Assembly (NCBI GenBank): GCA_947172415.1
Contig: OX359189.1
Location: 4,292,501 to 4,356,500, forward strand
DNA: 64,000 bases
Direction of reading: 5' to 3'
Source: Chondrosia reniformis
Taxonomy: Eukaryota > Porifera > Demospongiae > Chondrillida > Chondrillidae
Under the pieces are notes generated by a model. It was not told the origin of the DNA, did no database searches, and saw nothing but the letters and a program-made list of their open reading frames with translations. Below are positions 25,441 to 48,650 of this stretch, piece after piece. Numbering within the stretch: position 1 is the stretch's first letter; each line of letters begins with the position of its first letter. A program made the translations under genes and the position numbers.

Positions 25441-25914
25441 TCTAGTACATATAACTACTACATATATCTATACATTAGTACATAAATCTAGTACAAAGAA
25501 CTTGTACATACGACCAGTAACTACAACTAGTATATGTAGGCTTATTAAGCAGGGTTACAAATACTTTAAGCTAAAATCAACCTTTAAAACCTTCCTATCC
25601 CGGCAGCCTCTAGTTAGAATCAAGTATAAGCAAAAAGTAGCTAGTATGCTTAAGGACTGTCTTGTGTTACCCCATATTGTGTTACCCCACCTCCAAAGAA
25701 ATGTTACTACTAGAAGACCTAAGGGTAGACTTACGTAATATGTCCTACTTGTGTCTATAGTTATGCTGAGTCTGTTTTACCTGTACAAGCAAGATTACTA
25801 ATAGATTTATAATTAATTCATAAAAGTTAATTGGACCTACATTCCTTTCATAAAATTAAATTTCATCATGTGTCTTAGTTAACACCTTATTTAACTTTTG
25901 GCGCCAAAATAGTG

Positions 25915-25923
25915 TATATAAGG
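25915..25923 (+). promoter_or_regulatory. TATA box in the pseudo-LTR
   Basis: TATATAAGG, the only clear core-promoter motif here, lies about 70 bp upstream of the hammerhead. The same box is at 29416-29424 and 42956-42964. In the left repeat it would drive transcription into the ORF 400 bp downstream. Promoter activity is inferred from sequence. Confidence 0.6.
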
Positions 25924-25987
25924 CCCCTAGATTTAGCATAGTGAGCCAAGGATTCACAGAAGATCAAGATAAAGAAAAAGACAAAGA

Positions 25988-26046
25988 CTCCCAGGATCAC
26001 TGATGAAGGGTGGAATTCCCAGAAACGGCTGTCTGACCCAGTGGAG
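25988..26046 (+). ncRNA. Hammerhead ribozyme, type I, copy 1
   Basis: Conserved core CTGATGA at 26000-26006 and GAAA at 26022-26025, separated by stem II (GGG/CCC closing a 7-base loop, with an A-A pair at its base). Stem III is minimal: C26026 and A26025 pair with G31 and U32 of GTC at 26031-26033 around a GGCT loop, so cleavage would follow C26033. Stem I is open-ended: GGATCA (25994-25999) pairs with TGACCC (26034-26039) with one mismatch, then an internal loop, then CTCC (25988-25991) with GGAG (26043-26046). Hammerheads with a tiny stem III are known from pseudo-LTRs of Penelope-like elements. The A-A at the base of stem II is non-canonical, so cleavage needs testing. Confidence 0.8.
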
Positions 26047-26317
26047 AAGAAGATGAAAGAAGGGAAAAGAAGGAAGAAAAGACTACTGTATCTTCATCTA
26101 AAGCTCTCTTTAGGTTTAGTTCCCCTATAGGCTCTTTTTACAGAATAGGCATATAGCATGTAGGAAAATGGTATCTTAGATTTTTCATGTGTTTACTTAG
26201 CCTCATGTTAGTCCTTGGTGGCTGTTGAGCCATTGTTGCCTTTAAATAGTCCCGGCTACATGTAATAGGTTAAGTCTTTGTGGACTAGCTTGTCTAGTCC
26301 TTGACCCATTTCCAATC

Positions 26318-29239
26318 ATGACAAGTACAAAGTATAGAGATAGGATACCGGCTGGGAGGTCGCCCGGGTTAACAAGCTCCCCGTCATTAGGTAAAGGTAG
26401 GGTGCCTGGTGATGAAAAGTTAGCTAACTCTCCCCCATCTGTAGGTAGAGGGGTGCCTACTGGTGGGCAAGCTAGCCCCTCACTAGTTAAGAAGTGTAGT
26501 AATAAGCGGTGTAAAACATGTCCCTCTTTAGTTACTGGCCCTACTTTTAAGAGTTCAGTTACTGGCAGGACCTATCAAGTCCGTAGCCCTTGTGGTCCCC
26601 TAGGATGCCAGAGTAGGAATGTTGTGTATCTTATTACTTGTAAACAATGTGATGTACAGTATGTAGGAGAAACCTCTCAGATGCTTAGGAGTAGAATGAA
26701 CAACCATAGGACTAGTACCAAAGGTTTTAAGCCACTGTATCTTTACAATCACTTTAATTCTGATAACCATAGTTTTGATGATGCCTTGATTATGCCCATA
26801 GAACAGATACCTGAGACACCTAATTCTACTAGCCTCAGACTACTGAGAGAAGCGTTCTGGTACAAGGAACTCTGCTCTATTTACCCATATGGACTTAACG
26901 ATAACATTAAAGGCGTTGGCAATATTTCGAAACTTAAAAAAGAAATCATCGTATGGAACCTTTTTAATCGCTTATCTCATAAAAGACGGCATCGGCGCTC
27001 CAATCTAAAATCGACAGGCAGTAGTAATAACGCTGCCTACGACCCTAAATGGCTCAAAGAACGACTACCACTTTACAAGAACGTTGGCTTTCTAGCCAAA
27101 CTTAAACGCGATACTTTTGCATTACCAGCTCGACACCTTCATCGTTTGTTAAACTCGGTACAATGTCTCATCGATACCCCAGAAACACCTTTTCCGCTTA
27201 GACTTATGCTAATGATTAAAGACGTTATTAAAGCACGCGCTTCAGCCAGCCTTCCCAAACACCCAACGAAAACGACAAGTCCAGAAGGGTTTCTTAAAAT
27301 CGTGTTTCATAATAAAGGTGTAGAAAAAATAGGCCTCTCAGGTATCTTAAACCAAAAGTTAGTGTTAGAAACTGTCCCACCCTTTATACAAAACAAAGAG
27401 CCCCCATGTGTAGTATATAAGTATACCCAACCAATAGGACCTCAAATCTTTAACTTTTCACAAGCCTCCAAGTCAGATGTTTTTAGAAAACCAGAACCAT
27501 GTGAGTGTCACAAGTCCCCCTTCATTTACAAGCCCCTAGGCCATGTTTTAACAGGTGATCTACGTATTGTTAGTAACCCAAAACTTAGAAAACTTCTTAA
27601 GAAAGGACCAAAATTTAGAGAACCTAATAACTTTAATTGGGTAACTGCTTTAAAAATGTGTAAGGAAGGTCTTAGAAAATATAAGATTACCTGGGCCCGT
27701 AGAGAAAATGTATCTACTTCTGTATTTAGTGAGTGGGAAAATGCTGTACTTAAGAAAATTAATGATAGGATCTCTAAGCTGTCTAAATCGTATACCAAAT
27801 CCTCAGTAGCCAAGAAGACCCTTACTTGCCCTAAAATTAAGAAATTCTTAGCAGACCTACATGATAAGTATGTTATAGCCCCTGCCGATAAGGCCTCTAA
27901 TAATATAATTTTTATATGTAAGTCCTACTATAGACAAATTATTAATGAAGAACTAGGCAGTACCTCCACTTATGCTAAATGTGCAGTAGAACCCCAACAG
28001 TTAATTAGGAAACACATAGATTTCTTAAAACTAGAGAACTTAGAACCTAAACCAGACTGGTGTAACCTTCCCTCTTTTTACTGGATGCCTAAGCTACATA
28101 AGAACCCTTACAGCTACAGATTCATAGCCGCCTCTCACAAATGTACTACCAAACCCCTTTCTAGATTTCTAAATTCGGCGCTCAGACTAATTCTCAAACA
28201 TTTTAGAGAATACTGCCTAGGTATATATAGGAATACTGGTGTTAATGCCTTTTGGATTGTAGAAAACTCACTAGAAGTCTTAGATAGTCTTAGGTCTATA
28301 CCCACTAGAAAAGCCCAGCTAGCTAGTTTTGATTTTTCTACATTATATACAGCGATCCCCCATAATCTACTAAAAGATAAGATTACTAACCTAATTCATA
28401 GTGCCTATACCTGTAGAAAGTCCCAATATATAGAAGTCTGTCAGGATAAAGCCTTTTGGTCTAACAATGTCTCCAATAAAGCAGTCACAGCTGTTCATTT
28501 AGTAGAGCTCTTTAATTACCTTATTGACAACATTTATGTATGTGTAGACGGTTCTGTATTTAAGCAATGTGTAGGTATCCCTATGGGTACTGACTGTGCC
28601 CCTGTAGTTGCTAATCTTTTTCTGTTTGCCTATGAGTATGAGTTTATGAAAGGACTACTTAAGGATAACATCACCCTAGCTATTAAATTTTCCAATACTT
28701 ATAGGTATATTGATGACCTTTTATGTATTAACAACAAGGATTTTGAACTGTCAATTAGTGATATTTACCCCAAAGAACTTATTCTTAAAAAGACAAATAC
28801 CAGCCCTAAAAAATCCCCCTTTTTAGACTTAGATATAACCATTACTAACAATCAATTTATCACTAAAGTATATGATAAGCGAGAGGACTTTAACTTTGAT
28901 ATAGTAAATTTCCCCCATTTAGATAGTAATATTCCTAATACCCCAGCCTATGGTGTCTTTATTTCACAACTAATTAGGTATTCTAGAATATGTAGTGACT
29001 TCTCCAGTTTTCAGGCTAAAAGTTTGCAGTTATGCAGTAGGCTTATTAAGCAGGGTTACAAATACTTTAAGCTAAAATCAACCTTTAAAACCTTCCTATC
29101 CCGGCAGCCTCTAGTTAGAATCAAGTATAAGCAAAAAGTAGCTAGTATGCTTAAGGACTGTCTTGTGTTACCCCATATTGTGTTACCCCACCTCCAAAGA
29201 AATGTTACTACTAGAAGACCTAAGGGTAGACTTACGTAA
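26318..29239 (+). CDS. GIY-YIG endonuclease / reverse transcriptase of the Penelope-like element
   Basis: 973 residues, unbroken. An N-terminal basic, Pro/Ser-rich tail is followed by a cysteine cluster (C60, C65, C68, then C92, C97). The GIY-YIG nuclease at about 100-195 has VYLITC near 103-108, QYVGET at 114-119, R126, H130 and an EAFW segment at 178-181. A basic linker (about 200-330) and a Cys-rich ECHKS region near 396-400 precede the reverse transcriptase, about 515-850: PADKASNN (522-529), FYWMPKLHKNP (587-597), FDFSTLYTAIP with catalytic D672, GIPMGTDCAPVVAN and YRYIDD with D799-D800. The product should copy its RNA at a nicked target. The chosen start is the first ATG of the open frame after the left pseudo-LTR. 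The last 66 or so codons lie in the right pseudo-LTR. Codons for about 195-330 are unusually CpG-rich compared with the rest. Confidence 0.93.
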   Translation: MTSTKYRDRIPAGRSPGLTSSPSLGKGRVPGDEKLANSPPSVGRGVPTGGQASPSLVKKCSNKRCKTCPSLVTGPTFKSSVTGRTYQVRSPCGPLGCQSRNVVYLITCKQCDVQYVGETSQMLRSRMNNHRTSTKGFKPLYLYNHFNSDNHSFDDALIMPIEQIPETPNSTSLRLLREAFWYKELCSIYPYGLNDNIKGVGNISKLKKEIIVWNLFNRLSHKRRHRRSNLKSTGSSNNAAYDPKWLKERLPLYKNVGFLAKLKRDTFALPARHLHRLLNSVQCLIDTPETPFPLRLMLMIKDVIKARASASLPKHPTKTTSPEGFLKIVFHNKGVEKIGLSGILNQKLVLETVPPFIQNKEPPCVVYKYTQPIGPQIFNFSQASKSDVFRKPEPCECHKSPFIYKPLGHVLTGDLRIVSNPKLRKLLKKGPKFREPNNFNWVTALKMCKEGLRKYKITWARRENVSTSVFSEWENAVLKKINDRISKLSKSYTKSSVAKKTLTCPKIKKFLADLHDKYVIAPADKASNNIIFICKSYYRQIINEELGSTSTYAKCAVEPQQLIRKHIDFLKLENLEPKPDWCNLPSFYWMPKLHKNPYSYRFIAASHKCTTKPLSRFLNSALRLILKHFREYCLGIYRNTGVNAFWIVENSLEVLDSLRSIPTRKAQLASFDFSTLYTAIPHNLLKDKITNLIHSAYTCRKSQYIEVCQDKAFWSNNVSNKAVTAVHLVELFNYLIDNIYVCVDGSVFKQCVGIPMGTDCAPVVANLFLFAYEYEFMKGLLKDNITLAIKFSNTYRYIDDLLCINNKDFELSISDIYPKELILKKTNTSPKKSPFLDLDITITNNQFITKVYDKREDFNFDIVNFPHLDSNIPNTPAYGVFISQLIRYSRICSDFSSFQAKSLQLCSRLIKQGYKYFKLKSTFKTFLSRQPLVRIKYKQKVASMLKDCLVLPHIVLPHLQRNVTTRRPKGRLT

Positions 29240-29691
29240 TATGTCCTACTTGTGTCTATAGTTATGCTGAGTCTGTTTTACCTGTACAAGCAAGATTACT
29301 AATAGATTTATAATTAATTCATAAAAGTTAATTGGACCTACATTCCTTTCATAAAATTAAATTTCATCATGTGTCTTAGTTAACACCTTATTTAACTTTT
29401 GGCGCCAAAATAGTGTATATAAGGCCCCTAGATTTAGCATAGTGAGCCAAGGATTCACAGAAGATCAAGATAAAGAAAAAGACAAAGACTCCCAGGATCA
29501 CTGATGAAGGGTGGAATTCCCAGAAACGGCTGTCTGACCCAGTGGAGAAGAAGATGAAAGAAGGGAAAAGAAGGAAGAAAAGACTACTGTATCTTCATCT
29601 AAAGCTCTCTTTAGGTTTAGTTCCCCTATAGGCTCTTTTTACAGAATAGGCATATAGCATGTAGGAAAATGGTATCTTAGATTTTTCATGT
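29037..29691 (+). repeat. Right pseudo-LTR of the Penelope-like element
   Basis: Direct repeat of 25536-26190. It contains the ORF tail and stop (29237-29239), TATA box 29416-29424 and the second hammerhead. It ends in TTTTTCATGT, after which satellite AACTAGTAC resumes. The truncated copy at 42572-43231 ends at exactly the same base and is followed by the same satellite bases. Confidence 0.92.
29489..29547 (+). ncRNA. Hammerhead ribozyme, type I, copy 2
   Basis: Identical to the copy at 25988-26046. Core CTGATGA is at 29501-29507 and the predicted cleavage follows 29534. With a ribozyme in each repeat, a read-through transcript would be cut at both ends into a unit-length RNA of about 3.5 kb; this is inference from known element biology. 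Confidence 0.8.
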
Positions 29692-30825
29692 AACTAGTAC
29701 ATACAGAAATTCACACCACTAGTATATACAAGTAGTACATATAACTACAAACAACTAGTTAATACAACTAGTACATGCAAGTACTTACTAGTACATACAA
29801 CTAGTACATACAACTAGTACATATAACTAGTACATGGCCACCACTAAATACAGATTGATACTAGAATATACAATTAGTACGTACAATAATACAAAGAGTT
29901 AGTAAATACAGATTGTTACTAGTACTTTCATCTAGTACATACAATTAGTACATACACCTAGTACATACAACTAGTACATACAACTAGTACATATAACTAG
30001 TACATGCAATTACTTACTAGTACATAGAACTAATACTTATAACTAGTCCATACAACATTTACACAAAACTAGTACATACAACTAGTAAATATAACTGCTT
30101 ACAACTAGTATATACAACTAATAAATACAGATAGTTGCTAGTACATACATTTAGTTTATACAATTACTTCATACAACTAGTACGTATAACTAACACATGT
30201 AACTAGAAAATACAGATTGTTACTAGTACATACAATTAGTGCATACAACTAGTAACTACAACTAGTAAATATAATTAGTACATACACAAATTTAGCACAA
30301 CTAGTACAAACAGGTAGTACATAAAACTACATAAAACTAGTTCACACAACTAGTACATATAACTAGTAAGCACAATTAGTACATACAGCTAGTACATATA
30401 ACTAGTACATACAACTACTAAATAGAACTTATAAAGAACTAGTACTTTCAACTAGTACATAAAACAAGTACACAGAACTAGTACATAGAACTAGTTCATT
30501 TATCTAGTTACTAGCACGTACAACTAGTACATACAACTAGTACATACAACTAATACATACAACTAGTAACTACAACTAGTATATATAACTAGTACATACA
30601 CAAATTTCGCACAACTAGTGCACACATGTAGTACATATAACTACATACAGCTAGTTCAAACAATTAGTTCATACAACTAGTAACTAGTACATACACAAAT
30701 TTCGCACAACTAGTACAAACAAGTAGTACATAAAACTACATAAAACTAGTTCAAGCAACTAGTACATAGAACTAGTAAATACAATTAGTACATACAGCTA
30801 GTACATAAACTAGTAAATATAACTA
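29692..30825 (+). repeat. 13-bp satellite block
   Basis: Satellite in the usual orientation. A short variant with ACACAAATTTCGCACAACTAG repeats at about 30600 and 30690. No gene is seen. Confidence 0.9.
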
Positions 30826-31927
30826 CGCTAGTGGAACATGTCCATACTTCCAGAAAGTTATTTTAATTAATTATTCTATTTTACTTTAGAAACATCGTAT
30901 TTTACTTTAGAAACATCGTATCACTAAACAAGTTATATAGAATTGAAGCGCTATTCTTTCTTAATATCTTGGCTACAAAAGCGTCACGATTGCAGGCCTA
31001 AAGGAGAACGTAAGCGGCCGTAAGTGATAGGTGCCAAATCCCCAAAATGTTTTATTAGATAGTGGAAAATACGAATATAGAATAAATGGTGACACCAATC
31101 TATGAAGGATAATGATATCTAAGGATGGTATGTATACTCCTTTTAAATTCCCTTTAGTTTTTGAATTATAATTGAAAACCTATTTTCGTACCTTTATCAG
31201 GCGCCTCTAGTACTTAATATCTCAGTTAAACAAGGGAATATTCCAGGAGTATATATACAACTTTTAGGCTGTTACTTACTGAAGAGATTGATGTTAAAAA
31301 ATGGTTAGATATACAATTCTCCACTGTCTAATAATTGGTTCGTTTTCCATTTGTCTCTTCTCCTTCGAGTAATGGTATTGTCACGTGATTGTCAGCCAAA
31401 ATTAGTAGTATAGCTGAGCCATCATAAAATGACGTCTTATGACGTTTAACAGGCACCCAAATATTTGGTACAACATTAGACTTCCGAAGTTTAAATGTCA
31501 AGTAAGGCATCTCGGTAGCGATACAGTTTCTTTGATTGGAGTTTTTTGCTGTTGTAAGAGGTAAATGGAAAAAGTAAGCATAATGCATGTCTACTAATAT
31601 CTACGTAATTATCAATGGCGAAAATGTATGAGCAATTAACGAAGTATAATCAAAAGAAAATAGAACGTTTCGGTCACGTAGGCCTTTTTTGGCCTTCCTC
31701 CGTCGTTGGCCTTCCTCCACTCTACTATATAATTTGCTCATAAGTTTTCACAATTGATAATTTAACATGGTAACGACTAGTGATGGCTCGTGACGTTTCA
31801 GTGGCTGGTGCTTCGGTTCATGCGCAGGTCACATGCTAGAGACACTTCCGCCTAGAATGTGACACCTCTGAAAGCACTAATAAGACGATTTACAAAATGG
31901 GAAATTTGTGGACATGTTACACATGCG
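30826..31927 (+). mobile_element. 1.1-kb terminal-inverted-repeat element, copy 1
   Basis: Bounded by inverted ends CGCTAGTGGAACATGTCCA and the complement of a CGCATGTGTAACATGTCCA end (16 of 19 match). The flanks rebuild the satellite word AACTAGTACAT if a 2-bp TA was duplicated. It carries a 21-22 bp tandem duplication around TTTACTTTAGAAACATCGTA (about 30876-30919) and GGCCTTCCTCC repeats near 31690-31730. A minus-strand frame at 31588-31328 shares a block (RNCIATEMPYLT) with the other copy but has no recognised domain. It is probably a non-autonomous DNA transposon; the superfamily is not determined. Confidence 0.7.
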
Positions 31928-32322
31928 TAGTACATACAATTACTTACTAGTACATACAACTAGTTCATACAACTACTTACTAGTACATACAACTAGTACA
32001 TAAAATTATTTCATACAACTAGTACATATAACTAGTACATACAACAATTACACACACCTAGTACATAAAACTAGTGCATATAACTACATACAACTAGTAC
32101 ATACTAGTACATACAATTAGTAAATACATATTGTTACTATTACTTACACCTATTCCATACAACTAGTACATACATCTAGTACGTACATACATCTAGTACA
32201 AATAACTAGTACATACAACTATAACATACAACTAGTGCATAGAACTAGTATATACAGCTAGTACATAAAATTAGCACATATAACTACTACATACAACTAC
32301 TTACTAGTACATACAACTAGTA
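31928..32322 (+). repeat. 13-bp satellite block
   Basis: Short satellite stretch between the inverted-repeat element and the Jockey/CR1-type LINE. Nothing else is seen. Confidence 0.88.
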
Positions 32323-32323
32323 C

Positions 32324-32777
32324 TTGGCGAAACCTAACACTAAACTTTTGTATGGCTTCCTAGTTTCCCACTCCTTAATTCAACCTATCTCCCAGCCTAC
32401 AAGAATCTCTGAATCTTCCAATTCTTTCATTGACCTCTTCCTTACCACGCCCGATGTCCCAATCTCCAAATCAATGGTACTTGACTGTGTTATCTCCAAT
32501 CATCTTCCTATCCTTCTAGATCTTGCCCTTCCTGTCACTAAACCTGCTCGATGTTCAATCATTTAAGCATTTCTCTGAAGCTGATTTTGTTGATGATCTC
32601 TGGTCTGTCCTATGGTGCATTGCTGAGTTATTTGATGATGTTGACGACAAAATGAGTGTTTTCAACACACTCTTCCAAGAGGTCCTTGAAGTCCATACCC
32701 CAATCAAGTCTGTTCGAGTAAAGAAGAATACCGCTCCGTGGATCTCTAAACCCATCCGAGATGACATGGACAAGTGA
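32324..32777 (+). pseudogene. AP endonuclease C-terminal fragment of the LINE
   Basis: Two overlapping plus-strand frames. The first contains SFIDLFLTTPD and VISNHLPILLDLAL, matching the end of the AP-like endonuclease of Jockey/CR1-type LINEs (the usual SDH is SNH here). The second continues into the linker with FQEVLEVHTPIKSVRVKKN and APWISKPIRDDMDK, a block that usually precedes the reverse transcriptase. A stop follows at 32774, probably a decayed CGA codon, and a frameshift lies near 32530. The catalytic N-terminal half of the nuclease is absent. Confidence 0.72.
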
Positions 32778-33495
32778 AACAGACTCCTCAAACTCCATCG
32801 TCGGAATCCATCTGAAAACAAAGTGCATGCTGATCCACTCCTCACGGAAGAAGGTTGATGGTAACTTGGAGCTTAGTGTTGAAGGTCAACCCATTGAACT
32901 GGTTCGGGTATTCAAGTTTCTTGGTGTGCTCCTAAATGATGCTTTGACCTGGAGTGATCACATTGCCCACATCTGTGCTAAAGCTTCACGTAGCTTGAAC
33001 TTGCTTCGGCGTCTCTCATGGTTTCTTCCTAAATGTCTTCTTTTCCTATACTTCAAGTCCTACGTCCTTCTGACACTCGACTATTGTGATGTTGTATGGT
33101 CCTGCTGTACCTTTGAAGAAGCTAAACGCCTAGAAACTCGTTTCAACTTTGGTTGTCGTCACATTCTTCATAAGCCTCGCCTCTACTCTGCCTCCTCGGC
33201 CAGACAGGAAATAGGTTTAACCTCTTTAAACGACAGAAGAAAACTCCACATGTGTACAATGTACAAGTGCTTAAACTCCTTATCTCCACCATACCTGTCA
33301 CGTCTTCTCCACACTCCATCAACCCACCAAACCACACTTGCATCCTCTACAAAACAGCTCAATCTCCCTATGACACGTTCCAGCTTTGGACAAAAAGCTT
33401 TCAGCTTTGCTGGTGCTTCAACATGGCGATCCCTCCCAGACAGCATTCGAACGTGTAATGACTACTCCCTATTCTGTCAACTGTGCAGTGGATGA
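32778..33495 (+). pseudogene. Post-catalytic reverse transcriptase C-terminus of the LINE
   Basis: Plus-strand frame with VFKFLGVLLNDALTWSDHI, LRRLSWFLPKCLLFLYFKS and LDYCDVVW, the thumb and C-terminal segment of Jockey/CR1-type polymerases, followed by the usual tail with IGLTSLNDRRKLHM. The catalytic Asp-bearing motifs that should precede it are missing through the deletion near 32825. Not functional. Confidence 0.78.
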
Positions 33496-33681
33496 ACATA
33501 TTTCTATTTTGTTTGAATATCTCACATGAATTTATTATTTCTTTACTTGAATCATATGACTGACAATCCTTTATATATATATTATTTAATTTTCTTTTTT
33601 CTGAATTTTGTGGGTGCCTTCAGAATAGCCTTTGGCTAGTGGCTTTCCCAATTTAATAAGATTACAAAACCAAACTAAACC

Positions 33682-36600
33682 AAGTACATACAACTACTTA
33701 CTAGGACATACAACTAGTACATAAAATTATTACATACAATAAGTACATATAACTAGTACATTCAACAATTACACACAACTAGTACATAAAACTAATACAT
33801 ATAACTACATACAACTAGTACATACAATTAATAAATACAGATTGTTACTAGTACATACACCTAGTACATACAACCAGCACAAACAATTAGTAAATAAAAC
33901 TAGTACATGCAAACTAAATACAGATTGATACTAGAACATATACCTAGTTGAAAGAGCTATTAAATACATATTGTAACTAGTACCTACAACTAGTAACAAC
34001 AACTAGTAAATACAATTAGTACAATTAACTAGTACATACAACTAGTACATACAACTATTACATACAACTAGTACACAGAACTAGTACATATATCTAGTCA
34101 CTAGAACATACAAGTAGTACATATAAATACATACAACTAGTTCAAACAACTGGTACATAAAACTAGTAAATACAACTAGTACTTAGAGCTAGTACATACA
34201 ACTAGTACATATAACTAGTACATACAACTACTAACTAGAACATATATACAACTTTTACATTCAACAAGTATATATAACTAGTACATACAACTAGTACAAA
34301 CAACTATTACATGCTACTAGAATATATAAGTAGTACATATAACTAGTACATATATCTAGTTACTAGTACATACAACTAGTATATAAAACTAGAAACTTCA
34401 ACTAGTATATATAACTAGTACATAAAAAATTACTCACAACTAGAACAAATCAGGAGTCCATATAACTACATACAACTTTACATACAATTAGTACATATAA
34501 ATAGTTCATAAAACAATTGCACACAACTAGTACATAAAACAAGTACATATAACAACATGCAACTAGTACATACAATTAGTAAATACAGATTGTTACTAGT
34601 ACATACACCTAGTACATACAACAAATATATACAATTAGTATGTATAGCTAGTACCATCCAACTATTAAATACAGTTTGTTACTAGTACATACAATTATTA
34701 TATACAACTAGTACATACAACTGGTACATCCAGCCAGTATATACAACTAGTACATACCACTAGTACATACAACTATTTCATACAACTAGTACATAACACT
34801 AGTAACTGCAAGTAGTATATGAAACTAGTACATACAAAAATTACATCCAACTAGTACAAACCACTAGTACATATAACTATATACAAGTAGTTCAAACAAT
34901 TACTACTTACGACTAGTACATACAACTAGAACATACAACTACTTACTAGTACATACAACTAGTACATATAATTATTACCTACAAATAGTACATATAACTA
35001 GTACATACAAATAGTACATACAACATTTACACGCTACTAGTACATACAACTAGTACATATAACTACATACAAATAGTACAAACAACTAGTACATACTACT
35101 TATACATGCAACTTCTAAATACAGATTGATACTAGAACATGTAACTAATACAAAGAGCTAGTAAATACATATTGTTACTAGTACTTACACCTAGTGCATA
35201 CACCTAGTACCTACAACTAGTGCATTCAACTAGTACATACAACAAGTACATATAAATAGTACATGTAACTGCTACATACAACTATTACATACAACTAGTA
35301 ACTACAACTAGTATATATAACTAGTACATACAAAAATTACACACAACTAGTACAAACCAGTAGTGCATATAACTACATACAACTATTTCAAACAACTACT
35401 GCTTACGACTAGTACATACAACTACTACATACACCTAGTATATAAAATTAGTACATACAACTAATACATACCACTAGTACATACAACTACTTACTAGTAC
35501 ATACAACTACTTACTAGTACACACAACTACTACATACAACTAGTACATATAATTAGTACATGTAACTAGTACATATAACTAGTACATACAACAATTACCT
35601 ACAATTAGTACAAACAACTAGTATATATAACTACACACAACTAATATATACAATTTGCAAATACAATTTGTTACTAGTGTATACACCTAGTACCTACAAC
35701 TTGTACAAACAACTAGTACATATAACTAGTACATGCAACTACTAAATACAGTTTTACACTAGAACATACAACTAGTACAAAGAGCTTATAAATACATATT
35801 GTTACTAGTAGTTACACCTAGTACTTACCAATAGTACATACAATTGCTTACTAGTACATACAACTTGTACATACAATTAGTACATACCACTTTTACAAAT
35901 AACTACAGTTTGTTACTAGTGCATACAATTAGGACCTACAACTAGAACATTCAGCTGGTACATACAACTAGTACATATAACTAGTACATAAAACTACTAA
36001 CTAGAACATATATACAACTTGTAAATACAACTAGTACATACAACAAGTCCAAACAACTATTTCATACATCTAATACATACACCTATTACATAAAACCAGT
36101 ACATAACTAGTACATACAAGTAGTACATGTAACTACACACAACTAATTGAAACAACTAGTACATAAAACTAGTACATACAAATAGTACATACAGCTAGTG
36201 CATAAAACTAGTAAATACAACTAGTACATACAAATAGGACATATAACTAGTACATATAACAATTACACACAACTAGTCCATTCTACTAGTACATATATAT
36301 AACTACATACAACTAGTTCCTAGTACTAGTACCTACAACTAGTTAATCCTGATTGTTACAAGAACTTACACCTAGTAAATACAACGAATACATGCAACTC
36401 TATACTTACTAGTACATACAACTAATACATACACTTAGTACATACAACGAGTAAATACAACTAGTAGTAACAAAAATTACACACAACTAGTATATACAAC
36501 TAGTACATATAACTACATACAACTGGTACATACAATTAGTACATTCAACTAGTAAATTCAGATTGTTACTAGAACATACACCTAGTACATGCAACTTTAT

Positions 36601-38862
36601 ACTTACTAGCACATACAACTAATGCATACACTTAGTACATACAACGAGTAAATACAACTAGTAGTTACAAAAATTACACACAATTAGTACATACAACTAG
36701 TACATATAACTACATACAACAAATACATACAATTAGTACATACAACTAGTACATATAACTTGTGGTTACAACAATTACACACAACTAGTACGTACAAATG
36801 GTACTTATACCTACATACAACTAGTACATACAATTAGCACATTCAACTAGTAAATTCAGATTGTTACTAGTATATACACCTAGTACATACATCTAGTACA
36901 TACAACTAGTAACTATAACTAGTAAATATATCTAATACATACAAAAATTACAGACAACTAGTACATACAAGTAGTACATATAACTACATACAACTAGTTC
37001 AAACAACTAGTACATAAAACTAGTACATACAACTAGTACATAGAGCTAGGACATAAAACTAGTAAATACAACTAGTACATACAACTAGGACATATAACTA
37101 GTACATATAACAATTACACTCAACTAGTCCATTCTGCTAGTACATATAACTACATACAACTAGTTCATAGTTCTAGTACATACAACTAGTTAATACTGAT
37201 TGTTACAAGAACATACACCTAGTAAATACAACAAGTACATGCAACTATATACTTACTAGTACACACAACTAATACATACACTTAGTACATACAACGAGTA
37301 AATACAACTAGTAGTTACCACAATTACAGACAACTAGTACATACAACTAGTACATAGAACTACATACAACTAGTACATACAATGAGTACATCAAACTAGA
37401 ACATATAACTAGTACATATAATACCATACAACTAGGACATACAACTAGTACATACAACTATTACTTATAACTAGTACATGCAACTACTTCCTAGTACATA
37501 CAACTAGTACATACAACTAGTACCTGCAATTAAAAAATACATCTAGATACTAGTACATACAACTAGTACAAACAACTAGTATATAAAACTAGTAACTACA
37601 ACTAGAAAATATAACTAGTACATACAAACATTACACACAACTAGTACATACAATTAATACTACAACTAAGTCATAGAACTAGTACATATAACCAGTATAT
37701 ATAACTAGTACATACATATAGTACATACAAATAGTACATACAAGAAGAACATACAACCAGTTACTATTACATAGAACTAGTACATAAAAATAGTAACTAC
37801 AACTAGTAAGTATAATTAGTAGATACAAAAATTACATACAAGTAATATTTACAACTAGTTCATACAACTAGCAATTACAACTAGTTACTAGTACCTGCTA
37901 CTAGTACATACAACTAGTACATACAACTAGTACACACAACAATTACATTGCTAGTACATTCACCTAGTACATACAACTAGTACATACAACTAGTACACAC
38001 AACTAGTACATATTGCTAGTACATTCACCTAGTACATACAATAGTACATATAACTAGTACATGCAACTATTTACTAGTTACAATTAGTACAAACAGCTAG
38101 GACATATAACAAGTACATACAACAATTACTTAGAACTAGAACATACAACTAGTACATACAATTAGTACATATATCTAGTTACCATTACCTTCAACTAGTA
38201 CATAAAACTACTAACTACAACTAGTAAATTTAACTAATATAAAAAATTACAGACAACTAGTACATACAAGTAGTATCTATAACTACAAACAACTAGTACA
38301 TACAGCTACTACATACAAATAGTAACTATTACTAGTACATACATCTAGTATATAAAACTAGTACATAAAAGTAATACATAGAATTAGTACATACAACTAG
38401 TACATACAACTAGTACATAGAATTAGCACATACAGCCAGTACATACAACTAGTACATATAACTAGTAGATACAATAATTATATACACACAACTAGTACCT
38501 ACAACTAGAACATACAACTTCTGACTAGTACATACCACTAGTACATATAATTAGTACATACAACTAGTACATATAACCAGTACCTACATCAATTACACAC
38601 AAATAGTACATACAACTAGTACATAAAACTGCATGAAACTAGTACTTACAATTAGTAAATACAGATTGTTACTAGTACATTCACCTAGTACATACAGCAA
38701 GTACATACAATTAGTACATATACCTAGTATATGCAACTATTAAATACAGATTGTTACTAGTACATACAATTAGTACACACAACTAGTACACACAGCTAGT
38801 ACATACAACTAGAACATATCTCGAGCACATACAACTACTAACTAGATCATAGATACATCTAG
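33682..38862 (+). repeat. 13-bp satellite block with 0.2-0.35 kb higher-order units
   Basis: Satellite in the same orientation. The marker GATTGTTACTAG and a companion CATGCAACTNTATACTTACTAG (about 36385, 36589, 37230; again near 49872) show longer units of roughly 200-350 bp. No gene, RNA or other element is recognised in 5.2 kb. Confidence 0.9.
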
Positions 38863-39970
38863 CGCATGTGTAACATGTCTACAAATTTCCAATTTTTGTA
38901 AATTGCCATATTAGCGCTTTCAGAGGTGTCACATCCCAGGCAGATGTGTCTCTAGCATGTGACCTGCGCGTGAAGCGGAGCACCAGCCACTGAAATGTCA
39001 CGAGTCATCACTAGTCATTACCATGTTAAATTATCAATTGTGAAAACTTATGAGCAATTTATATAGTATAGTGGAGGAAGGCCAGCGACAAAGGAAGGCC
39101 AATAAATGCCTACGTGACCGAAACGTTCTATTTTCTTTTGATTATACTTCGTTAATTGTTCATACATTTTCGCCATTGATAATTACATATATATTAGTAG
39201 ACATGCAATATGCTTACCGTTTCCACTTACCTCTTACAACAACAAAAAACTCCGATCAAAGAAACTGTATCGCTACCGAGATGCCTTACTTGACATATAA
39301 ACTTCGGAAGTCTAATGTTTGTACCAAATATTTGGGTGCATATGCAATGTCATAAGACGTCATTGTATGATGGCTAAGCTATACTACTAATTTTGGCTCA
39401 CAATCACATGACAATACCATTACTCGAAGGAGAAGAGACAAATTGAAAACGAACCGATTATTAGACAGTGGAGAATTGTATATCTAACCATTTTTTGACA
39501 TCAATCTCTTCAGTAAGTAACAGCCTAAACGTTGTATGTATACTCCTGGAATATTCCCTTGATTAACTGAGATATTAAGTACTAGAGGCGCCTGATAAAG
39601 GTACGAAAATAGGTTTTCAATTATAATTCAAAAACTAAAGGGAATTTAAAAGGAGTATACATACCATCCTTAGATATCATTATCCTTCATAGATTGGTGT
39701 CACCATTTATTCTATATTCGTATTTTCAACTATCTAATAAAACATTTTTGGGGATTTGGCACCTATCACTTACGGCCGCTTATGTTCTCCTTTAAGCCTG
39801 CAATCGTGACGCTCTTGTAGCCAAAATATTAAGACAGAATAGCGCTTCAATTCTATATAATTTGTTTAGTGATATGATGTTTCTAAAGTAAAATAGAATA
39901 ATTTTAAAAAGAGTGTTAGTTAGCGACTTTTATCAAAAATTTCCGGAAGTGTGGACATGTTCCACTAGCG
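38863..39970 (-). mobile_element. 1.1-kb terminal-inverted-repeat element, copy 2 (inverted)
   Basis: Reverse-oriented copy of the element at 30826-31927, with clear similarity along the full length, ending in TCCACTAGCG. The flanks CATCT-AG and AG-TACATTC rebuild a satellite word with a 2-bp AG duplication. It lacks the short tandem duplication of copy 1 and has about 30 extra bases near 39910. The plus-strand frame 39050-39355 overlaps the shared block seen in copy 1 but differs at both ends, so coding is doubtful. Confidence 0.7.
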
Positions 39971-42571
39971 AGTACATTCAGCTAGTACATACAACAAGTA
40001 TATATAACTAGTACATATAAATAGTACATAAAACTAGTAACTACAACTAAAACATACATCTAGATACTAGTACATACAAATAGTACAAACAACTAGTACA
40101 TAAAACTAGTAACTACAACTAGTAAATATAACTAGTAGATACAAAATTACAAACAACTAGTAAATACAACAAGTACATATAACTATAACATGGAATTATT
40201 AAACACAGATTGTTACTAGTACATACAAATAGTACATACAACTAGTACATACAACTAGTACATACAGCTAGTACATACAACTAGTATATTCAACTAGTAC
40301 ATACAACTAGTACAAACAACTAGTACATGCAACTACTAAACACAGTTTGATACAAGAACATACAACTAGTACAAAGAGCTAGTAAATACAGATTGTTACT
40401 AGTACTTACACCTACTACATACAACTAGTACAAACAACTAGTACATGCAACTAGTGAATACAGATTGTTACTAGTACATACAATTAGTACATACAACTAG
40501 TACAAACAGCTAGTACATACAACTAGTACATATAACTAGTACATATAACTAGTACATACAACTAATACATAAAACTAGTACATAGAATTACTACATATAT
40601 ATAGGTACTAGTACACACAACTAGTACATGCAGCTAGTACATACAACTAGTACATATAACTAGTACATACAACTACTTACTAGAACATATATACATCTAG
40701 TACATTCAACTAGAACCTACATCAAGTACATAAAACTAGTACTTAGAACTGGAACATACAACTATTACATACAACTAGTACATAGAACTAGGACATACAA
40801 CTAGTATATACAACTAGTAACTACAACTAGTATATATAACTAGTATTTTCAAAACGTACACACAACTATTACAAACTAGTAGGAGATATAGGGACATACA
40901 ACTAGTTCAAACAACTACTACCTACGACTAGTACATTCAATTAGTACATAAAATTAGTACAATCAACTGGTGCATACAACTAGTACATACAACTACTTAC
41001 TAGTACATACAACTACTTATTAATACATATAATCAATACATACAACTAGTAGATATAACTAGTACATACAACTAGTACATACAACTAGTTCAAACAACTA
41101 GTACATATAACTAATACATGCAACTACTAAATACAGTTTTATACTAGAATATACCACTAGTACAAAGAGCTAATAAATACAGCTTTTTACTAGTACATAC
41201 ACCTACTACATACAACTAGTAAATACAACTAGTACATACAACTAGTACATGCAACTAGTGAATACAGATTGTTACTAGTATATACAATTAGAACATAAAA
41301 CTAGTACATACAGCTAGTACATACAACTAGGACATATAACTAGTACATACAACAACTAACTAGAACATATATACAACTAGTAAATAAAACAAGTACATAT
41401 AAATAGTACATACAACTGGTACACACAAGTAGAACATACAACAAGTACATAGAACTAGTACATAGAACTAGCACATATATCTTGTTCTAGTACATACAAC
41501 TAGAACACACAACTTGTGCGTACAACTAGTAACTACAACTAGTAACTACAACTAGTAAATATAACTAGTACATACACAAATTTCACACAACTACTACATA
41601 TATGTAGTACATATAACCCCATACAACTAGTTCAAACAACTAGTACATACAATTAGAACATACAACTAGTACATATAACTAGTACATACGACTACTAAAT
41701 ACAGATTGATACTAGAACATATAACTAGTACATAGAGTTAGTAAATACATATTGTTTCGGGTACTTAAACCTAGTACATACAACTAGTACATAAAACTAG
41801 TACATATATTTAGTTACTAGTACATACAACTAGTACATACAGCTAGAACATACAACTAGTACATATAACTAGTACATACAACTAGTACATACAACTATTA
41901 CATACAACTAGTACATAGAACTGGTACATAGAAGTAGTACATATATTTAGTTACTAGTGCATACAACCAGTACATACAACTAGTACATACAACTAGTCAC
42001 TACAACTACTCACTAGTACATACAACTAGTACATACAACTACTTACTAGAACATACAGCTATTACATGCAATTAGTACACACAACTAATACATATAACTA
42101 GTACATACAACAGTTACACACAACTAGTAAAAACAACTAGTACATATAACTACATGCAACTAGTAGATTCAATTAACCAAAACAGATTGTTACTAGTACA
42201 TACAACTAGTACATATAACTAGAACATGCAACTACTAAATACAGATTGATACTAGAACATACAATTAGTACAAAGAGCTAGTAAATACATATTGTTACTA
42301 GTACACACACCTAGTTCATACAACCGGTACATACAATTATTACATATAACTAGTACATGCAACTACTTACTTGTACATACAACTAGTACAAACAATTAGT
42401 ACATCCAACTTTTACATATAACTAGTTCACCCAACAATTAGACACAACTAGTACATCCAACTCGTGTATATAATAACATACAACTATTACACACAACTAA
42501 TAAATACAGTTTGTTACTAGTACATACATTTACTACATACAATTACTACATACAACTAGCACATGCATACG
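39971..42571 (+). repeat. 13-bp satellite block
   Basis: Satellite in the usual orientation, with recurring AATACAGATTGATACTAGAACATAC and ACAAAGAGCTAGTAAATAC markers. Nothing else is seen. Confidence 0.9.
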
Positions 42572-43231
42572 ATGCAGTAGGCTGATTAAGCAGGGTTACA
42601 AATACTTTAAGCTAAAGTCAACCTTTAAAACCTTCCTATCCCGGCAGCCTCTAGTTAGAATCAAGTATAAGCAAAAAGTAGCTAGTATGCTTAAGGACTG
42701 TCTTGTGTTACCCCATATTGTGTTACCCCACCTCCAAAGAAATGTTACTACTAGAAGACCTAAGGGTAGACTTACGTAATATGTCCTACTTGTGTCTATA
42801 GTTATGCTGAGTCTGTTATACCTGTACAAGCAAGATTACTAATAGATTTATAATTAATTCATAAAAGTTAATTGGACCTACATTCCTTTCATAAAATTAA
42901 ATTTCATCATGTGTCTTAGTTAACACCTTATTTAACTTTTGGCGCCAAAATACTGTATATAAGGCCCCTAGATTTAGCATAGTGAGCCAAGGATTCACAG
43001 AATATCAAGATAAAGAAAAAGACAAAGACTCCCAGGATCACTGATGAAGGGTGGAATTCCCAGAAACGGCTGTCTGACCCAGTGGAGAAGAAGATGAAAG
43101 AAGGGAAAAGAAGGAAGAAAAGACTACTGTATCTTCATCTAAAGCTCTCTTTAGGTTTAGTTCCCCTATAGGCTCTTTTTACAGAATAGGCATATAGCAT
43201 GTAGGAAAATGGTATCTTAGATTTTTCATGT
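42572..43231 (+). mobile_element. 5'-truncated Penelope-like copy (solo pseudo-LTR)
   Basis: 660-bp copy of the 3' end of the element at 25536-29691, starting 5 bp upstream of the pseudo-LTR boundary (ATGCAGTAG). I see about five substitutions relative to it (for example C at 42953 before the TATA box and G in GGCTGATTAAG). It keeps the end of the coding frame, the stop, TATA box and hammerhead. It could be a 5'-truncated insertion or the remnant of recombination between repeats. Confidence 0.9.
43029..43087 (+). ncRNA. Hammerhead ribozyme, type I, copy 3
   Basis: Core CTGATGA at 43041-43047, GAAA at 43063-43066, with all stems as in the other two copies. No change is seen within the ribozyme although the surrounding copy has diverged, which fits selection or simply the low number of changes. 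Confidence 0.78.
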
Positions 43232-44347: not shown

Positions 44348-44697
44348 TGATTTTTCATAAATTTACCCAGCTCTCCTGTGGTTGATGGTGGCCAGCGACC
44401 CATTGGTTAAGATGACCCCTCCCACTGGAAATGGGCTGGGTCTTGATTATCAGCTTGTCTGATGAAGTGAATCACCACTAATTAAGAATGTACACTGATT
44501 ATTTGTTGTAGTTAGTTTAAGAGGGAGAACATGGGAGAGGCATTGCTGTGGCAGTTGTAGCTCAGTGGCAGAGCAACTGGTGGTCATAACCAGCTGTCCT
44601 GGGTTCAATCCCAGCAATTGCTTCTTTCGTGTTTTTCCCTCTTTATGATGTTTCATTGATTATTACTTGTGGTTTGATTATCACATCGATTATTCAT
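44348..44697 (+). mobile_element. tRNA-derived SINE unit, copy 1
   Basis: About 350 bp made of a body (from TTTTTCATAAATTTACCC), then a tRNA-like segment at 44551-44621, then a tail (TTCTTTCGTGTTTTTCCCTC onwards). The same three parts occur at 47683-48174. Putting the tRNA-like part after the body is unusual for a single SINE and is explained if the family propagates as a tandem unit, with this copy cut at a different point. A minus-strand frame across it is a shadow. Confidence 0.75.
44551..44621 (+). repeat. tRNA-like head of the SINE, copy 1
   Basis: A 71-nt cloverleaf-like segment. Acceptor arms GCAGTTG/CAATTGC pair, A box TAGCTCAGTGG is at 44558-44568, B box GGTTCAATCC at 44602-44611, and the D stem is GCTC/GAGC. 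The anticodon arm does not fold as a normal 7-base loop around CAT, and the T loop is one base short. It is therefore read as a polymerase III promoter inherited from a tRNA rather than a working tRNA. Confidence 0.75.
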
Positions 44698-47682
44698 ATA
44701 ACTAGTACATACAACTACTAACTAGAACATATATACATCTAGTACATTCAGCCAGTACATACAACAAGTACAAATAACTAGTACATAAAACTAGTACATA
44801 CAACTAGCACATACAACTAGTATATACAACTAGTGATTACAACTAGTATATATAACTAGTAAATACAAAAATTACACACAACTAGTACACACAACCAGTA
44901 CATACAACTAGTACATACAACTACTTACTAGTACATACAACTAGTAAATACAATTAGTACATACAACTAGTACATACAACTAGTACATAGAACTAGTACA
45001 TATATCTAGTTACTAGTAAATACAACTAGTACATACAGCTAGTACACACAACTAGTAGATATAACTAGTACATACAACTACTAACTAGAACATATATACA
45101 TCTAGTACATTCAACTAGAACAAACAAGTACATATAACTAGTACATACAACTAGTACATACAATTATTACATACAACTAGTACATAGAACTATAGTACAT
45201 AGAAGTAGTACATATATCTAGTTACTAGTGCATACAACCAGTACATACAACTAGTACATACAACTAGTAACTACAACTAGTAAATATAACTAGTACATAC
45301 AAAAATTACACACAACTATTACAAACCAGTCGTACATATAACCACATACAACTAGTTCAAACAACTACTGCTTACGACTAGTACATATAACTAGTACACA
45401 CAACTAGTACATACAACTACTCACTAGTACATACAACTAGTACATACAACTACTTACTAGAATATACAACTATTAATATAATTAGTACACACAACCAATA
45501 CATATAATTAGTACATACAACAATTACACACAACTAATACATATAACTAGTACATACAACAATTACACACAACTAGTACATATTACTACATACAATTAGT
45601 TCATAGGACTAGTACATACAACTAGTTAATACTGATTGTTACTAGAACATACACCTAGTAAATTCAACAAGTACAAAAAACTAATACAAATAACTAGTAC
45701 ATGCAACTACTTACTAGTACATTCAACTAGTACATACAATTATTACATACAACTAGTATAGATAACTAGTTCATACAACAATTACACACTACTAGTACAT
45801 ACAACTAGTACAAATAATTACATTCGATTAGTACATACAATTAGTAAATACAGATTGTTACTATTACATACATCTTGTACATACAACTAGTTCAAACAAC
45901 TAGAACAAATAACTAGTACATGCAACTGCTGAATACAGATTGATACTAGAATATACAACTAGTACAAGGAGCTAGTAAATAAATATTGTTACGAGTACTT
46001 ACACCTAGAACATACAGCTAGTACATACAATTAGTACATATAACTACTACATGCAACTACTTAATAGTACATACAACTAGTGCATACAATTAGTACATAC
46101 AACTAGGACATATAACTAGTGCATGCACAAATTTCACACAACTAATACAAACATGTAGTAAATATAACTACAGACAACCAGTTCTAATAACTAGTACATA
46201 AAACTACTACATGCAACTAGTACATACATCTAGTTACGAGAATATACAACTAGTAGATACAACTATTACATACATTTAGTAACTACAATTAGTAAATATA
46301 ACTAGTATATACATACAAACATTATACACAACTTTTACATACGAGTAGTCCATATAACTGCATACAACTAGTTCAAACAACTACTACTTACAACTAGTAT
46401 ATACAACTACTACATACAGCTAGTACATAAAATTAGTACATAGAACTAGTACATAAAACTAGCACATGCAACAACTTACTAGGTCATACTATTAGTAAAT
46501 ACAATTAGTACTTACAACTAGTAAATATACCTTGTTCATACAACTATTACACACAACTAGTACATACAACTCGTACATATAACTACATACACTAGTCTAT
46601 ACAATTAGTAAATACAGATTGTTACTAGTACATTCACCTAGTGCATACAACTCGTACATATAACTACATGCAACTAGTCTATACAATTAGTAAATACAGA
46701 TTGTTACAAGTACATACACCTAGTATATACAACTAGTACATAGAACTAGTACATAGAACTAGTACTTTCAACTAGTACCTGCAACTACTTAAGAGTATTT
46801 ACAACTAGTGCATACAATTAGGACATACAATTGTACATATAACTAGTACATAGAAGAATTACGCACAACTAGTACATACAACTATTACATTCAACTAGTC
46901 CATACAACAAGTACATACAACTAGTACATACAAGTAATACATACAACTAGTTACTACTACATAAAACTAGTACATACAACTAGTACATACAACTAGTAAC
47001 TACAACCAGTAAATAAAATAGTTCATACAACAATTACACACAATTAGTATATACAATTAGTACATACAACCAGTATATACAACAAGTATCTAGTACATAA
47101 AACTAGTACATTCAACTGGTACATACATCTTTTTACGAGTGCATACAACTAGTAGATACAACTAGTAAATACAATTAGTAACTACAACTAGTAAATATAA
47201 CTAGTACATACAAACATTACACAAAACTTGTACATATGAGTAGTACATATAACTACATACAACTAGTTCAAACAGCTACTACTTACGACTAGTAGATACA
47301 GCTAGTACATACAGGTGGTACATAAAATTAGTACATAGAACTAGTACATATAATGAGTACATATAACAATTACACACAACTGGTTCATACAACTAGTACA
47401 TATAACTACATACAACTAATACATACAACTACTCAATACAGATTGTTACTAGTACATGCAACTAGTGCATACAACTAGTACACATAACTAGTACATGCAA
47501 CTACTAAATACCCATTGTTACTAGTACTTACACCTAGTACATACAACTAGTACATGCAACTAGTAGATATAACTAGTACATGCAATTACTGACTAGCACA
47601 TAGAACCTGTAAATACAATTAGTACAAAGAACTAGTACTTATAACTAGTACATGCAGCAATTACACACAACTAGTACATACT
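44698..47682 (+). repeat. 13-bp satellite block
   Basis: Satellite in the usual orientation. No other feature was recognised in 3 kb. Confidence 0.9.
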
Positions 47683-47688
47683 GCTGTG

Positions 47689-47760
47689 GCAGTTGTAGCT
47701 CAGTGGCAGAGCAACTGGTGGTCATAACCAGCTGCCCTGGGTTCGATTCCCAGCTATTGC
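47689..47760 (+). repeat. tRNA-like head of the SINE, copy 2
   Basis: 72 nt with A box TAGCTCAGTGG and B box GGTTCGATTCC. Its T arm is perfect (CTGGG, 7-base loop, CCCAG), making it the best preserved of the three heads. The acceptor arm has one T-T mismatch and the anticodon arm is again irregular. Confidence 0.75.
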
Positions 47761-48026
47761 TTCTTTCGTGTTTTTCCCTCTTTATAATGTTTGATTGATT
47801 ATTACTTGTGGTGTGATTATCACATCGATTTTTCATAGATTTACCCAGCTCTCTTCTGGTTGATGGTGGCCAGCGACCCATGGGTTAGATGGTCCCTCGC
47901 ACTGGAAATGGGCTGGGCTTTGATTATCAGCTTCTACGGATGAAGAGAATCACCACTGATTAAGAATGTACACCAATTATTACTTGTAGTCAGCTTAAGA
48001 GGGAGAGCATGGGGGGCATTGCTGTG

Positions 48027-48098
48027 GCAGTTGTAGCTCAGTGGCAGAGCAACTGGTGGTCATAACCAGCTGTCCTTGGTTCAATTCCCAGCAATTGT
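48027..48098 (+). repeat. tRNA-like head of the SINE, copy 3
   Basis: Second head of the dimer. The A box is intact; the B box is GGTTCAATTCC. The acceptor end is CAATTGT, giving a G.T pair at the first position. Confidence 0.72.
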
Positions 48099-48174
48099 TT
48101 CTTTTGTGTTTTTCCCTCCTTATGATGTTTGATTTATAATTACTTGTGGTTTGATTATCACATCAATTATTCAT

Positions 48175-48650
48175 ACAACTAGTACATATAACTACATACA
48201 ACTAGAACATACAACTAGTAAATACAGATTGTTACTAGGACGTACAACTAGTACATACATCTAGTACATACAGTTAGTACCATCATCTACAACATATAAC
48301 TAGTACATACAACTGCTAACTAGAACATATATACAACTAGGACATACAACTAGTGCATTCAGCAAGTACATATAACTAGTACATAAAACTAGTACATACA
48401 ACAAGTACATACAACTGGTACATAAAACTAGTACATACAATTAGTAACTACAACTAGTAAATATTAATAGTACATACAAAAATTACACAAAACTAGTACT
48501 TACCCGTAGTACATATAACTACATACAACTAGTTCAAACAACTACTACTTACGACTAGTATATAAAACTAGTAAATACAGCTATTTCATAAATCTAGTGC
48601 ATAGAACTAGTACATAGAACTAGTACATACAGCTATTACATACAACCAGT
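48175..48650 (+). repeat. 13-bp satellite block
   Basis: Satellite in the usual orientation between the SINE dimer and the direct-repeat unit. Nothing else is seen. Confidence 0.88.

Follow-up and report, generated by a model that had tools for sequence, protein, structure and literature searches.

A Naiad-type Penelope-like element in the window

The window (the whole 64-kb stretch of DNA that was analysed) carries a Penelope-like element of 4156 bp on the forward strand, at positions 25536 to 29691, which consists of a 3501-bp unit with a 655-bp partial copy ahead of it. The 5' pseudo-LTR (copy A, 25536 to 26190, forward strand) has zero mismatches relative to the 3' pseudo-LTR (copy B, 29037 to 29691, forward strand), which overlaps the 3' end of the open reading frame (ORF) and has the terminus ..GATTTTTCAT at 29689, with an ambiguity of up to 2 nt. 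A separate, 5'-truncated copy (copy C, 42572 to 43231, forward strand) has five mismatches to copy B.

The 997-aa ORF (26246 to 29239, forward strand, stop to stop, first Met at 26318) encodes an N-terminal GIY-YIG domain, a CxC motif (PCECH) and a C-terminal half that resembles a reverse transcriptase (RT) and contains YIDD. Pfam family PF01541 (GIY-YIG) matched residues 104–137 of the N-terminal piece with 23.2 bits, above the cut-off of 22.6, and the whole ORF with 21.9 bits, slightly below it. The RT-like half, YIDD and the CxC motif were assigned by eye; the RT half gave no Pfam match, and no RT was found for it among PDB sequences at E ≤ 1. Because the GIY-YIG endonuclease stands N-terminal of this RT-like part within one ORF, the element has the Naiad layout, with the RT half recognized by eye as described.

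Across the genome, at least 50 protein matches to the ORF were found, some of them pieces of one copy. Nine matches span the whole query with 99–100% identity and no stop; the family is therefore young, and the Naiad-type element is recently active. Copies of the element have pseudo-LTRs made of partial tandem units, a fixed 3' end and a variable 5' end. Among the 29 distinct flanks listed, they end in ..GATTTTTCAT followed by varied DNA, often a 13-bp AACTAGTACATAC-like repeat; a degenerate form of this repeat occupies long stretches of the window at about 20000 to 48000 and contains element copies. A fixed pseudo-LTR 5' end at 25536 was dropped as an artefact of the query's own edge, the real 5' ends being variable. 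A search for relatives of the element in viral contigs found none.

Several other features lie in the window. An inverted repeat (30885 to 31897 and 38894 to 39908) has arms of ~1 kb in three blocks, 93–96% complementary and about 7 kb apart, and a 509-aa open frame at 61572 to 63101 (forward strand) matches PF13843 (DDE_Tnp_1_7) with 272.6 bits and encodes a transposase. tRNA-like units at 44349 to 44698 and 47682 to 48175 match RF00005 with 44–50 bits (three genes, two of them 338 bp apart); they share GATTTTTCATA and the following letters with the Naiad sequence at 26179 (61% over 61 nt), and they are perhaps short elements that borrow the Naiad enzyme.

A hammerhead-like motif in both pseudo-LTRs

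An identical 59-nt motif occurs three times on the forward strand, at 25988 to 26046, 29489 to 29547 and 43029 to 43087, with CTGATGA at 26000, 29501 and 43041 and predicted cleavage at C26033|T26034, C29534|T29535 and C43074|T43075. The first-pass annotation had placed a hammerhead-like motif at these positions, within Penelope-like pseudo-LTRs, and had named 26034, 29535 and 43075 as the first bases after the cut; the placements are borne out, as the 655-bp direct repeats carry motifs 1 and 2, and the bases were named correctly. We scanned both strands of the window with a descriptor comprising the core, a stem II with a mismatch tolerated solely at its base, a stem III of A-U plus at least one pair, and a stem I of at least three pairs; the scan returned the same three places and no others. 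Applied to 300 random 64-kb windows from a first-order Markov model, it found 3 places. The resulting 0.01 per random window is optimistic because the descriptor was fitted post hoc, with the motif already known (version one had missed the motif through its loop rule).

Based on the elements that define a type I hammerhead, the core CUGANGA ... GAAA is present together with A15.1-U16.1 and a cleavable H17, whereas the closing pair of stem II, G10.1-C11.1, is replaced in the window copies by A.A. Searching with the Rfam hammerhead covariance models, which the first-pass annotation had proposed as a check and whose silence it had counted as half of the case against its reading, gave zero matches in the window at E ≤ 1 and none in a 301-base stretch at E ≤ 10. 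The probable cause of this silence is the A.A at the stem II base together with a weak stem I, whose arms in the window are GGATCA and TGACCC. Energy folding favors an alternative structure at −13.3 kcal/mol over the drawn hammerhead monomer at −3.7 kcal/mol; the minimum free energy fold of the motif is not a hammerhead, and its energy is no better than that of shuffles. Stem III would form only a weak hairpin. Its octamer, ACGGCUGU in the window and the palindrome ACAGCUGU in older copies, has predicted self-duplex energies of −9.7 and −11.1 kcal/mol, respectively.

Older copies of the motif across the genome

The pattern CTGANGA-N15-GAAACAGCTGTC has 650 matches in the 117-Mb genome and the reversed-pattern control has 0; the matches are copies of related elements and hence are not independent. 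Among the 100 of the 650 matches listed (contigs C1 and C2), position 10.1 is A in 100 and position 11.1 is A in 96. A pattern with A forced on both sides of the stem II base, and with the young family's second base excluded, yielded 96 versus 7. We aligned the window motif with 11 older sites (66–101 nt) hand-picked from the pattern lists; all 11 align with it, and those with longer flanks match beyond the motif too. The stem II base is A.A in 10 of these 12 rows, and A.G and A-U in the remaining two. The A.A at the stem II base, which the first-pass annotation had called unusual, does depart from the G10.1-C11.1 pair, and it is a trait of the family.

One older copy (L072) has a full 6-bp stem I, GGGCCA/TGGCCC, which arises through differences on both sides; despite this complete stem I, an Rfam hammerhead search of its 96 nt gave no match. 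Over the 12 rows, 85.6% of cells are paired, compared with 16–54% in slid versions. Covariation in the 12 rows is not above that of shuffles, and many older copies look decayed; within the young family, where covariation was also attempted, the sequences are near-invariant. Substitutions affect 20 of 3776 motif cells (0.53%), compared with 0.83% and 0.80% in the flanks; these are raw rates, to which we give no weight.

Separately, the hammerhead model RF00163 has 65 matches in the genome, 51 of them above the cut-off, and some occur as pairs about 354 bp apart. We considered these matches as part of the Naiad element and rejected that assignment: in a coordinate comparison they do not lie beside GIY-YIG matches, and they look like animal retrozymes. 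Eight such loci (L001–L008) have the stem III octamer ACAGCUGU in common with older copies of the Naiad motif, but they have a canonical 4-bp stem II with a G-C base, and beyond the core they show no clear similarity to the element. In addition, CTGATGAAGG..CCGAAACG-like strings, which we take to resemble the minimal hammerhead of Penelope-like elements, occur in the flanks of several loci (L022:443, L037, L038:422, L061:802, L065); L022 alone scores in Rfam, below threshold (HH9, 20.8 bits).

Copies that begin at the predicted cleavage site

Copying of a cut RNA should give some insertions whose first base is the one just past the cut. We therefore searched the whole genome for the post-cut segment preceded by two bases of which neither is native (native: TC). 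This search identified 49 copies that begin exactly at the predicted cleavage site, 2 of which are the full-length copy L016 itself, and the reversed pattern gave 0. The same search at control sites gave 3 at −1, 7 at +1 and 8 at +6. Six rows with a preceding GT are probably not junctions, as the one that was read (L082) is a point deletion; without them, the site has 43 rows and the three controls together have 18, for which a binomial test gives p of about 1e-13 on the assumption that rows are independent; even 30 versus 18 would yield p of 4e-8. The 49 sites have eight distinct preceding dinucleotides and are spread over 14 of 15 contigs. So many broken copies starting exactly at the predicted cut suggest that the cut occurs in living cells.

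In the older TGGCCC subfamily, for which the search was run at the site alone, 55 copies start at the site; these rows are clustered, with seven in one 440-bp array and ten rows with CA inside a single megabase of C2. An A precedes the site in 32 of the 43 non-GT rows, mostly as CA, and CA also dominates the preceding bases in the 55-row set; an added base, a target preference and subfamily membership are options for this A.

Upstream letters were read for 6 of the 49 matches (L080–L085). Three (L080, L081 and L084) are preceded by unrelated DNA, with 30 nt that resemble neither the element nor each other. The others consist of a tandem duplication that starts at the cleavage site (L083), a deletion that leaves the cleavage site directly next to the outer 5' arm of stem I (L085), and the one-base deletion L082, in which the motif is otherwise intact. 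In L016, both pseudo-LTRs contain a duplication of 32 bp whose first base is exactly the one corresponding to 29535 (u29535), with no microhomology.

In the window element, the segment from the cleavage site to the 3' terminus spans 155 bp (29535 to 29689, forward strand), and insertions with the same two ends occur elsewhere in the genome. The L081 insertion (end read as L087) reaches ATTTTTCAT and then other DNA 152 bp after the site, and the L084 insertion (end read as L088) does so 155 bp after the site, the native distance being 155; each of these mini-insertions was read at its two ends. An unrelated 5' flank with the usual 3' terminus 152 or 155 bp on is what the insertion of a 3' cleavage product would leave. 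For the L080 insertion (end read as L086), the 3' terminus was absent at the expected place. The first-pass annotation had proposed that two ribozymes could release a unit-length RNA; the footprint seen is instead that of a short 3' product of about 155 nt. Among 136 GIY-YIG matches (150 of 501 candidates scored), none lies at the expected distance downstream of any of the 49 sites save the L016 5' repeat, by comparison of coordinates.

Longer copies give a different picture of 5' ends. In sampled loci, the 5' ends of alignments are scattered over 52 distinct positions, of which one, the L016 junction, is at 29535; these loci were chosen by ORF or motif region, and short copies thus fall outside the sample. 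Several full copies, including L009, L010, L011 and L013, retain sequence upstream of the 5' motif, so their templates were uncut at that motif.

It is improbable, in our judgment, that the 5' ends at T26034 are RT stops at RNA structure or a transcription start, with the hammerhead a relic that does not cut. Rfam and energy models see no hammerhead, 5' ends can be fixed by other means, and simple run-off at a cut would not predict the A that precedes 32 of the 43 non-GT rows, all of which would suit this reading; the excess nevertheless falls on the exact base that the core predicts, while the neighboring positions have just 3 and 7. A polymerase that ran into stem I should halt at the outer, 3' side of the stem, and a TATA-like box at 25915 to 25921 would put a start near 25945, not at 26034.

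We also regard it as improbable that the 49 matches are mainly a few insertions multiplied by DNA duplication, such that the count overstates the independent events. Several patterns favor duplication: pairs with the same dinucleotide lie 10–50 kb apart (e.g., C1:8230863/8240931 and C5:1381923/1431684), a tandem array occurs at C7:5308376-5308455, two rows are the two L016 repeats, and the TGGCCC set has seven rows in C2:756960-757400 and ten same-strand CA rows in C2:2.5–3.5 Mb. Set against these are the eight different dinucleotides ahead of the site, the spread over 14 of the 15 contigs, the mutual unlikeness over 30 nt of the three true flanks that were read, and the one base shared by insertions, separate duplications (L016, L083) and a deletion (L085). 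Chance resemblance with no role in cleavage would suit a descriptor fitted post hoc and a poor fold energy, but it is highly improbable given 650 versus 0 genome matches (related copies, non-independent) and the footprint.

Proposed mechanism

We consider it likely, based on genomic sequence, that the motif in these Naiad-type pseudo-LTRs works as a non-canonical type I hammerhead, probably dimer-assisted, and cuts the element RNA in vivo. The abundance of the motif in the genome, the 5'-end footprint and the mini-insertions outweigh the missing Rfam match and the poor fold. The first-pass reading of a hammerhead in Penelope-like pseudo-LTRs is thus supported and gains a cleavage-site footprint, with two amendments: the layout is Naiad-type, and the product is short rather than unit-length.

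Under this hammerhead reading, the element RNA would be cut, presumably by its own catalysis, after C26033 or C29534. A cut in the 3' pseudo-LTR would detach from the ORF a terminal piece of ~155 nt that runs up to the position at which reverse transcription begins. This position is probably marked by the fixed 3' terminus, which lies 155 nt past the cut. Because the cut template keeps the start point but loses the ORF, the enzyme would then copy the short piece only and produce insertions of ~155 bp that begin at the cleavage site. A polymerase that reaches the cut end may switch template, which would give duplications or deletions starting at the site. Full-length copies with sequence upstream of the first motif would derive from RNA uncut there.

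The short stem III probably makes cleavage best between two motif copies. A dimer is possible because the stem III octamer pairs with itself, and two motifs in one RNA could in this way form a dimeric ribozyme. At the stem II base, the A.A may continue the series of purine-purine pairs that belong to the core; it is compatible with activity because the axolotl ribozyme with U.U in the same place is active.

Relation to known systems

Hammerheads in Penelope-like elements (PLEs) are already known. Minimal type I hammerheads are said to have been found in canonical Penelope-like elements and in Terminons, by Cervera and de la Pena in 2014 and by Lunse in 2017. Those hammerheads reportedly resemble the present motif in type I topology, pseudo-LTR location, a short or missing stem III and likely use as dimers; the present motif differs from them in its N-terminal GIY-YIG host, its stem III tetraloop and its A.A stem II base. 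Naiad elements have an N-terminal GIY-YIG domain, a CxC linker, an RT behind it, pseudo-LTRs and insertion in microsatellite-like repeats, all as in the present element, whose CxC motif and RT-like half were recognized by eye. Craig et al. in 2021 reportedly described Naiads as being without canonical hammerheads, whereas the present element has a non-canonical one.

The axolotl ribozyme HHR_Amex2 (PMC7229834) is similar in its mismatch at the stem II base and its 2-bp stem III with a tetraloop; the mismatch is U.U there and A.A here, and HHR_Amex2 lies in a retrozyme of ~350 bp, not in a PLE. The same paper gives weak cleavage of HHR_Amex2 alone and much better cleavage as a dimer, and dimeric ribozymes of this type are described for newt and axolotl in PMC6155905 and PMC7229834. 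For a lizard PLE, PMC11167929 describes a hammerhead that cuts only with protein present, cleavage that is dispensable for insertion in vitro, an absence of RNA reads ending at the site, and reverse transcription that begins within the RNA near the pseudo-LTR/ORF junction. The role of the PLE hammerhead is termed unknown in a passage of one review (PMC7761336).

Three points appear new as far as the literature searched extends (Cervera 2014, Lunse 2017 and Craig 2021 lie outside it): a hammerhead in an element with an N-terminal GIY-YIG domain, an A.A variant that curated models fail to detect, and copies in the genome whose 5' ends coincide with a cleavage site. The footprint at the predicted base would be natural evidence for ribozyme cleavage of retroelement RNA ahead of its copying, in a branch that is not known to carry canonical hammerheads, and the footprint test can be applied to any genome. 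More broadly, we give roughly even chances to the proposal that Naiads carry a hidden class of hammerheads with A.A in stem II, missed by curated models, that cut RNA in the germ line. Such a ribozyme would sever the RT start from the coding RNA and seed ~155-bp mini-insertions, and it may thereby act as a built-in brake on the element or supply it with non-autonomous copies.
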